Assembly: GCA_021737975.1 (NCBI GenBank)
Contig: JAIPCZ010000004.1
Location: 39,102-103,101, forward strand
DNA from: Polaromonas sp.
Lineage (GTDB): Bacteria > Pseudomonadota > Gammaproteobacteria > Burkholderiales > Burkholderiaceae_C
Length of the DNA stretch: 64,000 nucleotides
Direction: 5' to 3'
In this document: piece after piece, positions 39,813-42,738 of the stretch
Numbering within the stretch: position 1 is the stretch's first letter
How the letters are laid out: each line of letters begins with the position of its first letter
The notes under the pieces: generated by a model
What the model was told of the DNA's origin: nothing
What the model saw: only the letters and a program-made list of their open reading frames with translations
Database searches by the model: none
Program-made: the position numbers and the translations under genes

Positions 39813-40553
39813 ATGCCTGAATTCTCAAGAACCGGCGCCCGCGCCGCCAATGCGCTGCGCCCTGTCACCCTCACACGCAGTTACACGCGGCACGCAGAGG
39901 GCTCGGTCCTGGTGGAGTTTGGCCACACCAAGGTGCTGTGTAATGCCTCGGTGCTCGACAAAGTGCCACCGCACCAGAAGGGCAGTGGCCAGGGCTGGGT
40001 CACCGCCGAATACGGCATGCTGCCGCGCGCCACCCACAGCCGAAGCGACCGCGAGGCCGCGCGTGGCAAACAAACCGGGCGCACCCAGGAAATCCAGCGC
40101 CTGATCGGCCGTGCCCTGCGCTCGGTGTTCGACCTGACGCTTTTGGGCGAGCGCACCATTCACCTCGACTGCGACGTGATTCAGGCCGACGGCGGCACCC
40201 GCACCGCGGCCATCACCGGCGCCTTTGTCGCGGCGCAGGATGCCGTCAACGGTTTGCTGGTCCAGGGAAAGCTGGCCCGCTCGCCCATTCGCGAGGCCGT
40301 GGCCGCCATCTCGGTCGGCATCGTGCGAGGCACGCCGCTGCTCGACCTGGAATACACCGAAGACTCGGCCTGCGACACCGACATGAACGTGGTCATGACG
40401 GCCAGCGGCCACTATGTCGAGGTCCAGGGCACGGCCGAGGGCGCCGCCTTCAGCCGTGCTGAGATGGATGCGCTGCTGGCGCTGGCCGACCAAGGCATTC
40501 GTGAGCTGGTTCAGTTGCAGCAGGCGGCACTCGCCAGGGTGGCGTTGTCATGA
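39813..40553 (+). CDS. rph: Ribonuclease PH
   Basis: [49 protein letters not shown]. Confidence 0.96.
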
Positions 40554-41149
40554 AAATCGTTCTGGCCTCCAACAACGCCGGCAAGCTGGCCGAGTTGCAC
40601 GCCATGTTTGCGCCGCTGGGTTTCGAACTGGTGCAGCAGGGCAGCCTGGGCATTCCCGAGGCCGAGGAGCCGTTTCACACCTTCATTGAAAACGCGCTGG
40701 CCAAAGCGCGCCATGCCGCGCGGCTCAGCGGCCTGCCCGCCGTGGCCGACGATGCCGGCCTGTGTGTGGATGCCTTTGGTGGCCTGCCCGGCGTGCAAAC
40801 CGCCTTTTACGCCACCCGATTCGGCTACCCCAAGAGCGACGACAACAATGTGCGCGCGCTGCTGGAACAAATGGCAGGCATCGACAACCGGCGCGCTGCA
40901 ATGGTCAGCACGCTGGTGGCGCTGCGCTCGCCCGACGACCCGGAACCCCTGGTGGCGGTGGGCCGGGTGGTAGGCGAAATTGCCCGCGAGCCCGCGGGTT
41001 CCAACGGCTTTGGCTTTGACCCGGTGATGTTCATTCCCGAGTTTGGCAAGACCTTTGCCCAGTTGCCGGTGGAAGTGAAAAACGCCAACAGCCACCGGGG
41101 ACGCGCAGCGGCGGCCATGGTCGCCTTGATGCGTGAGCGGTGGTTGTGA
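40550..41149 (+). CDS. rdgB: RdgB/HAM1 family non-canonical purine NTP pyrophosphatase
   Basis: [40 protein letters not shown]. Confidence 0.95.
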
Positions 41150-41180
41150 GTTTTGATCTTGCAGGCGCTGGGACGTTGAA

Positions 41181-41300
41181 ACCAAGGCGAAGTCCGTTCA
41201 TGACGAAACCCGCGAGGCAGGCCCTGTGGGCGGCTTCCTCATACTGGGGTACCAGAAATCGTCTGCCCCCCACAGGGCCTACCTCGCTAGACGCCTTGGT
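41181..41300 (-). repeat. Structured repeat element A: long hairpin with outer 9-bp inverted repeat
   Basis: Outer ACCAAGGCG(41181-41189)/CGCCTTGGT(41292-41300); inner 22-nt arms 41213-41234/41265-41286 with 20/22 pairs; apical 25-mer 41237-41261. Confidence 0.8.
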
Positions 41301-41374
41301 ATGCAAATCCAGTGACCATTCAGATGTTGGGATTGGGGGATTCAAGCAAGCTTTGCAAGCGAACCGCGACATCG

Positions 41375-41450
41375 GCGCGGCAGCCGGATGGGGTGATCGC
41401 CGATTTCTGGTACCCCAGTATGAGGCGGTCGCCCCATCCGGTTGCCGCGC
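41375..41450 (+). repeat. Structured repeat element B: long hairpin
   Basis: 27-nt arms 41375-41401/41424-41450 with 24 Watson-Crick and 3 G.U pairs; apical 25-mer 41401-41425 is the exact reverse complement of 41237-41261. Confidence 0.8.
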
Positions 41451-41496
41451 AGCTAACACACCAAACGCCTGATCCCTGCCATCTCGCAGCCCCGCC

Positions 41497-42738
41497 ATGA
41501 TCCCGATCCACCAAGAAACCACCTCAACGGATGCGCCTGTGACGACACGCGACATCCAGCACTACATGCGCCCCGGCACGCTGCAACTGGGCAGCCTGCC
41601 GCCCTTGTCGCTGTATGTGCATCTGCCCTGGTGCCTCAAAAAGTGCCCTTATTGCGACTTCAACTCGCATGAAATGCGCAGCGCAGAGCTGCCCGAGCAA
41701 CGCTACATCGACGCGCTGATGGCCGACCTGGAGGCCGCACTGCCGCTGATCTGGGGCCGCAGCGTCCAAACCGTGTTCATGGGCGGCGGCACGCCCAGCC
41801 TGTTCTCGCCACAAGCCATCGACCAGTTGCTGGCCGGCATCCGCGCCAGGGTTCGGCTGGCGCCGAACGCCGAAATCACGCTGGAAGCCAACCCCGGCAC
41901 GTTCGAGAAGCACCGCTTCAGGGCCTACCGTTCAGCCGGCGTCACACGCCTGTCGGTGGGGGTGCAAAGTTTCAACGACAATTTCTTGCGTGCGCTGGGC
42001 CGGGTCCATGACCGCGACCAGGCCATCGCGGCGGTCGAAGAGGCCGCGCAGGCGTTTGACACCTTCAACCTCGATTTGATGTACGCCCTGCCCGGCCAGA
42101 CGCTTGACGCTTTGCGCGCCGATGTCACCACCGCACTGGCGCTGGCACCCCGGCATGTGTCGATTTACCACCTCACCATCGAACCCAATACCTACTTCGC
42201 CAAGTTCCCGCCTGCTGCCGTGGAGGACGATCTGGCCGCCGACATGCTGGACCTGGTCACCGACATGACCGGTGCTGCGGGACTGCAAAGGTATGAGGTT
42301 TCGGCCTATGCCCTGCCTGGCCATGCGAGCGTGCACAACCTGAACTACTGGCAGTTTGGCGACTACCTGGGCTTGGGCGCAGGGGCCCATAGCAAGCTCA
42401 GCTTTGCCCACCGGGTCGTGCGCCAGGTGCGCGCCCGCAACCCCGAGCTTTACATGGCGCAGGCGCTGGCTGGGCAGTGCGTGGTGCAGGACTTCGACGT
42501 CAAGAGAGGCGAGTTGGCGTTTGAGTTCATGCTTAACGCGCTGCGACTGGCGGACGGCTTCGATACCGGTCTGTTTGCCGAGCGCACCGGCATGCCGCTG
42601 TCTGCCCTGCAGGCCGGGCTGCAACAGGCCCAAAGACAGGGATTGCTCACCGTGGACGGCACCCACGTCCGGCCCAGCGTGCGCGGCTTTGACTTTTTAA
42701 ACGATTTGCAGGCGCTGTTTTTGCCGGCCGCACGTTGA
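41497..42738 (+). CDS. hemW: HemW-like radical SAM protein (coproporphyrinogen III oxidase-like heme chaperone)
   Basis: LYVHLPWCLKKCPYCDFNSHE, VFMGGGTPSLFSPQAIDQLL; exact start uncertain (in-frame ATG at 41566). Confidence 0.92.
   Translation: MIPIHQETTSTDAPVTTRDIQHYMRPGTLQLGSLPPLSLYVHLPWCLKKCPYCDFNSHEMRSAELPEQRYIDALMADLEAALPLIWGRSVQTVFMGGGTPSLFSPQAIDQLLAGIRARVRLAPNAEITLEANPGTFEKHRFRAYRSAGVTRLSVGVQSFNDNFLRALGRVHDRDQAIAAVEEAAQAFDTFNLDLMYALPGQTLDALRADVTTALALAPRHVSIYHLTIEPNTYFAKFPPAAVEDDLAADMLDLVTDMTGAAGLQRYEVSAYALPGHASVHNLNYWQFGDYLGLGAGAHSKLSFAHRVVRQVRARNPELYMAQALAGQCVVQDFDVKRGELAFEFMLNALRLADGFDTGLFAERTGMPLSALQAGLQQAQRQGLLTVDGTHVRPSVRGFDFLNDLQALFLPAAR

Follow-up and report, generated by a model that had tools for sequence, protein, structure and literature searches.

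Long hairpins with an invariant internal loop near the tip form a dispersed, probably REP-like repeat family in freshwater Comamonadaceae

Two inverted hairpins in the spacer between an rdgB-like and a hemW-like gene of Polaromonas are one copy of a dispersed hairpin repeat family of freshwater Comamonadaceae that was previously unrecognised, or at best barely described. The pair is best read (with a probability of roughly 0.6) as belonging to a family of non-autonomous palindromic elements that resemble REP/BIME but have a new type of structure. (The window, here and below, is the whole 64,000-nucleotide stretch of DNA that was analysed; coordinates refer to it.) The features of the locus are:

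40550..41149, plus strand: rdgB-like flanking gene (XTP/dITP pyrophosphatase), named from its sequence and not by family scan
41150..41496, no strand: rdgB-hemW spacer containing the hairpin pair, from comparison with congeners
41212..41287, minus strand: hairpin A, with type I neck (GACGA...A), from its fold and its match to the covariance model R1 (G000:C12:80313-80388:-)
41237..41261, minus strand: invariant apical module of hairpin A (CGATTT-CTGG-TACC-CCAG-TATGAGG on the minus strand), by sequence match
41288..41374, no strand: poorly conserved core separating hairpins A and B, from comparison of orthologues
41375..41450, plus strand: hairpin B, with type II neck (CCGA) and an uninterrupted 27-bp stem, from its fold and R1 match (G000:C12:80476-80551:+)
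41401..41425, plus strand: invariant apical module of hairpin B, by sequence match
41497..42738, plus strand: hemW-like flanking gene (radical SAM protein), named from its sequence and not by family scan

The central claim of the preliminary description, two inverted hairpins with an identical 25-nt apical sequence, is confirmed: CCTCATACTGGGGTACCAGAAATCG (41237-41261) is the exact reverse complement of 41401-41425, the apical 22-mer with up to three mismatches has exactly two sites in the window and none in 100 shuffled windows, and the fold energies of hairpins A and B lie at z -6.0 and -9.6 relative to shuffles. The shared apical sequence of the two hairpins is more than chance would supply. 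Parts of the original outline have had to be redrawn. Element A is a hairpin, but its conserved span is 41212-41287 and not 41181-41300; the outer stem ACCAAGGCG/CGCCTTGGT that extends it to the wider limits is probably fortuitous, because the orthologues do not keep it. The 25 nt are identical but do not form a single loop, being in reality a 4-bp mini-stem (CTGG/CCAG) set on a conserved internal loop. The stems of A and B do differ, but cannot be called simply unrelated, since stem subfamilies recur across loci.

Copies are numerous. A 21-mer with up to three mismatches finds 15 places in the genome that the window comes from (2.6 Mb and about 70% complete), most of them as divergent pairs, and R1 (whose E-values are rough, with strict filters in searches across more than 40 genomes) finds 22 hairpins there, that is, 25 matches minus three reverse self-matches. 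The apical sequence is present in 51 of 90 congeneric genomes and, in the wider family, in 21 of 301 genomes and 13 of 141 sampled genera; the named hosts are Rhodoferax, Limnohabitans, Polaromonas, Curvibacter and unnamed Comamonadaceae. Annotated collections of plasmid and phage records yielded no copies, and a shallow search of other families of the order gave no match. One copy is on a Singulisphaera-labelled contig (Planctomycetes; L151 79-100), probably through a binning error. The tip sequence also occurs on two viral-labelled contigs of IMG/VR (L194 7970-7990 and L195 1234-1254), the former without a stem, so that a chance match or host DNA may account for it. In Limnohabitans and relatives (L088, L147, L149, L150, L169) a distinct subfamily consists of single hairpins with TTAATTTCCAATC...GATTGGAAATTAA as flanks, often located between two convergent genes.

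The copies are structured. When places were chosen by loop sequence alone, 255 of 267 distinct ones had a stem score of at least 15. Stems are 23-32 bp long in units of about 76-90 nt, and the hairpins group into stem subfamilies common to several loci. In an alignment of 96 non-redundant hairpins, each of the 24 outer-stem pairs changes on both sides, 96.3% of cells are paired across the whole structure, and the covariation score is 0.906, against 0.193 for shuffled and at most 0.17 for slid controls; dealing the 3' arms out among the hairpins lowers Watson-Crick pairing from 89% to 41%. The predicted dispersed family with compensatory stem changes is thus found, and the opposite outcome, a sole locus with no covariation, is excluded; a one-off local rearrangement is ruled out by the same dispersed, covarying copies.

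What is invariant is smaller than the 25-mer. Own-genome tips that R1 finds and the 25-mer search misses read CGATTT-CTG-GGCGTTTGA-CAG-TATGAGG or have GTGG/CCAC mini-stems, and relatives carry CGC/GCG and CTGC/GCAG mini-stems, so that the mini-stem above the internal loop also covaries. What stays invariant is therefore the internal loop CGATTT/TATGAGG, which has a covarying stem on either side (the tip having served as search key, its conservation comes partly from hit selection, which the R1 search corrects in part). The type II neck may be read as C-G, C-G, G.A, A.G, U.U, U-A, U.U, which would make it a symmetric loop with tandem G.A pairs. At one locus (L073, ~940-1170 and 2711) both members of a pair have tips about 22 nt longer (CGATTTGGCTGCGCCGAAACTTCGTTTTCTGG...), which suggests concerted tip change within a pair.

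Stem mismatches are strongly biased with respect to strand. In 110 non-redundant hairpins, admitted on their Watson-Crick pairing (at least 17 of 23 pairs) irrespective of mismatch type, there are 179 G.T mismatches to 15 A.C, 56 A.G to 5 C.T, and 15 G.G to 3 C.C; the bootstrap range of the G.T:A.C ratio is 8-23 for a set equal in size and counts, and the bias is seen in both neck types. Each class of mismatch is its partner read on the opposite strand; selection for folding therefore acts on the GATTT...ATGAGG strand, which works single-stranded, as ssDNA or RNA. The working single strand would be the minus strand for hairpin A and the plus strand for hairpin B. Cruciform DNA or template switching would not yield such a bias, which fits ssDNA and RNA equally.

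Pairing follows a rule of orientation. Among neighbours 100-250 bp apart, 73 of 76 in a first catalogue are arranged (-,+), with two (--) and one (+-); a second catalogue has 47 of 54 in the (-,+) arrangement, the remainder being in part tandem additions. Loop-to-loop distances are mostly 109-222 bp, and at nine sites of one Polaromonas genome the distance is nearly constant (157-159 bp). Type I and type II necks are combined in 40 of 69 pairs (34 expected), slightly above chance. The core of the Polaromonas pairs is a third hairpin made from GGTAGCGCGCTACC-like palindromes. In Polaromonas bin75 (L050, L067, L077, L080, L125, L146) the core is a palindromic hairpin of GGTAGCGCGCTACC units with GTAG, and these loci form a fixed-length three-hairpin composite.

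Most copies are intergenic; others are read in frame, in linkers of the proteins encoded by uvrA, dnaE2 and the gene of an MmeI-type methylase. (Gene contexts were assigned by ORF length from a simple ORF caller, not by gene prediction.) The 73 classified pairs stand between convergent (24), codirectional (37) and divergent (12) genes; the corresponding numbers for background gene neighbours are 73 (20%), 225 and 67, so that pairs have a mild preference for 3' ends. Single hairpins do not favour the sense strand of the adjacent gene in a rough test that used the simple ORF calling, and the hairpins were on this ground rejected as an mRNA 3'-end element. In three genomes (G226, G256, G141), pairs with variant tips are found in frame at three shared linkers of a long UvrA protein, the G141 contig ending within the third. 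A regular spacing of ~1.9 kb that had looked like a gene-cassette array is in reality this long uvrA with its three in-frame pairs. Hairpins are also in frame in the error-prone DNA polymerase gene dnaE2 of G299, and G016 and G066 each have one hairpin in frame in an MmeI-type methylase gene.

The pair is a unit of presence and absence. Of 28 congeners with a readable rdgB-hemW spacer, 13 have the pair (spacer 320-472 bp), 14 do not (18-56 bp), and one retains a remnant cut from the tip of hairpin A to beyond hairpin B (99 bp); this pattern could include losses. The empty sites are too diverged for exact borders to be placed, and a target-site duplication is not established. Orthologous pairs at this locus keep the tip and change the stem on both sides (CTGTGGG/CCCACAG, CTCTGGG/CCCAGAG, CTTTGGG/CCCAAAG). 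Many other copies are orthologous across species at ~80-90% flank identity, and much of the spread is therefore old; copies within a Polaromonas genome are diverged (~70-86% identical), and so no recent transposition was caught.

Two loci contain inserted genes. In L073 (2952-3968, G002:C2) the core separating two hairpins has taken up an IS with a DDE_Tnp_1/DUF772 transposase. At a parE/gyrB-like locus (L074 1113-2679, G014:C150), genes for a BglII-like restriction endonuclease and an N6/N4 DNA methylase are flanked by parts of two hairpin elements and look as though two copies had captured them. An autonomous form, with a gene between two hairpins, was considered and rejected: what long-spaced neighbours flank are ordinary genes (sodB-like and transporter genes, for example), the inserted IS or the BglII-like restriction-modification pair.

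The preliminary description had also proposed looking for an associated nuclease or transposase. None was found beside the copies, and the RAYT-like gene, though ubiquitous, shows no association with the hairpins. Of 90 congeners, 80 carry Y1_Tnp genes, and they include genomes both with hairpins and lacking them; G031, G054, G084 and G088 have Y1_Tnp and no R1 match, and 30 fetched Y1_Tnp loci contained no hairpin. A RAYT was accordingly rejected as partner, the hairpins being missing from Y1_Tnp loci and Y1_Tnp being present also in hairpin-free genomes, and no other candidate partner protein emerged. The Y1_Tnp (RAYT-like) gene of these four genomes and of other congeners encodes ~240 aa, and nearly all congeners have it, whatever their hairpin content.

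According to the preferred, REP/BIME-like reading, each hairpin of ~76-90 nt would be a recognition unit, single-stranded in one orientation (the GATTT...ATGAGG strand). Its stem would need pairing alone, so that the sequence could drift by compensatory change, and a putative protein would read the fixed internal loop near the tip, CGATTT/TATGAGG. Two divergent units would be what is gained and lost, as in REPINs and BIMEs. Conservation and strand bias suggest recognition at the loop; mobility would be due to an enzyme acting on single strands, with ssDNA rather than RNA as the probable active form.

REPs form inverted dimers and are found as dual insertions in uvrA and as copies in DnaE2 genes; a GTAG/CGTC-tagged REP has a stem of 5-13 bp in a unit of 20-40 bp, with the tag at the foot of the stem (PMC3733652). 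Common to REPs, BIMEs, REPINs and the present hairpins are dispersed palindromes, mostly in inverted dimers, complementary stem drift with G.T pairs, mostly intergenic sites, in-frame uvrA and dnaE2 copies, and a patchy host range. In contrast, stems here are 23-32 bp and units 76-90 nt, and the invariant part is near the tip, whereas that of REPs is a GTAG/CGTC tag at the stem foot. Of the 110 non-redundant hairpins, 12 have CGTC and 3 have GTAG in the 14 nt on the 5' side of the foot. The GTAG-REP moreover has an associated RAYT (Y1_Tnp) gene flanked by repeats, an association absent here. The hairpins work like REP, BIME and RPE but fail the REP definition in stem length, foot tag and RAYT. 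The Rickettsia palindromic elements (RPE) are palindromic inserts read in frame within genes of working proteins (PMC3733652). The in-frame palindromic insert is shared with them, though RPE belong to a different bacterial class and the likeness is by description. MITEs (NEMIS/Correia, ERIC) are likewise small, non-coding, dispersed repeats with inverted ends; in the present family the ends are long hairpins in their own right, each having a fixed tip, and neither a terminal inverted repeat nor a target duplication is in evidence. Integron attC sites are also strand-specific single-strand hairpins with variable stems, but with conserved ends and a variable tip, the reverse of the present hairpins, in which the tip is invariant and the foot variable. 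No integron cassette array or integrase was seen with the hairpins.

The earlier impression that no known family matches holds for Rfam, where no family exceeds its gathering score (sub-threshold matches are mostly miRNA hairpins), and the tip sequence as a text string was found in no paper of the collection searched. It does not hold for behaviour, which fits REP, BIME and RPE, and the family may have been described before as BRE (PMC3110155). That it is this Beta-proteobacterial repeat element (Hot et al. 2011), already named but structurally not understood, is a serious possibility, though less likely than not. BREs are ~75-91 bp long, G+C rich and partly inside coding sequences; they were described from Bordetella as tight tandem repeats, and their hosts include Comamonadaceae, among them Polaromonas, and Rhodoferax ferrireducens with four BREs (PMC3110155). 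Unit size, high G+C, overlapping Comamonadaceae hosts and partial location within coding sequences thus agree, as far as descriptions can be compared. G003, presumably R. ferrireducens T118, has three R1 matches at a (rough) E ≤ 1e-4, where BRE has four copies. Against identity, R1 has no match in 41 genomes of the family f4 (its Alcaligenaceae label and the presence of Bordetella in it are guesses), and tight tandem repeats are not spaced inverted pairs. The BRE article text gives no fold, pair geometry or motif, and the likeness is one of description only (PMC3110155). Identity with BRE would concern the name, not the mechanism, and is compatible with the REP/BIME-like explanation.

A further reading is advanced only tentatively: an as yet unrecognised selfish-element system with strand-specific long hairpin ends, its CGATTT/TATGAGG internal loop (with possible tandem G.A pairs) read by a single-strand nuclease or transposase of Comamonadaceae that is unrelated to RAYT and would also put the in-frame inserts into repair genes.

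It is rather unlikely, though not negligibly so, that the hairpins are transcribed RNA with a protein-binding internal loop, acting in mRNA stability or as small RNAs, and that dispersal is secondary. G.U-type pairs at ~7% of stem pairs, with few A.C, are as in structured RNAs; an internal-loop motif between covarying stems resembles an RNA-protein site; and a possibly related BRE locus yields the Northern-positive sRNAs bprJ1/J2 (PMC3110155). However, the members of a pair are opposed, so that one transcript holds just one favoured strand, copies stand in many unrelated gene contexts, and single hairpins lack the sense-strand preference. The core of the window's pair, when searched for a sigma-70-like promoter or a terminator (a T tract after the stem), had neither.

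Intrinsic bidirectional terminators or 3'-end elements between genes, without mobility, are very improbable and already largely refuted: the convergent excess (24 of 73 pairs) is moderate, but there is no T tract after the stem, copies are also found between codirectional and divergent genes and inside ORFs, and termination needs no long fixed apical module. Scarcely credible is a local rearrangement, or a palindrome without selected function kept perfect by replication template switching; such repair could produce long near-perfect stems with rapidly changing sequence, as seen here, and may contribute to stem repair, but is refuted as sole cause because hundreds of dispersed copies carry the same apical module and because it gives no 12:1 mismatch strand bias.

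The family, if understood as REP/BIME-like, is a case of the REP mode of life realised with another architecture, its fixed part near the tip and not at the foot. Should it turn out to be BRE, the covariation, the strand bias, the tip motif, the pair geometry and the insertions in repair genes would still appear new. The strand bias of mismatches provides a test, from sequence alone, for which strand works single-stranded, and the hairpin is a defined bait for finding the partner protein. Linkers of uvrA and dnaE2 are used repeatedly, as by unrelated REPs in other phyla, and the question of why repair genes carry palindromes becomes testable in a new group.
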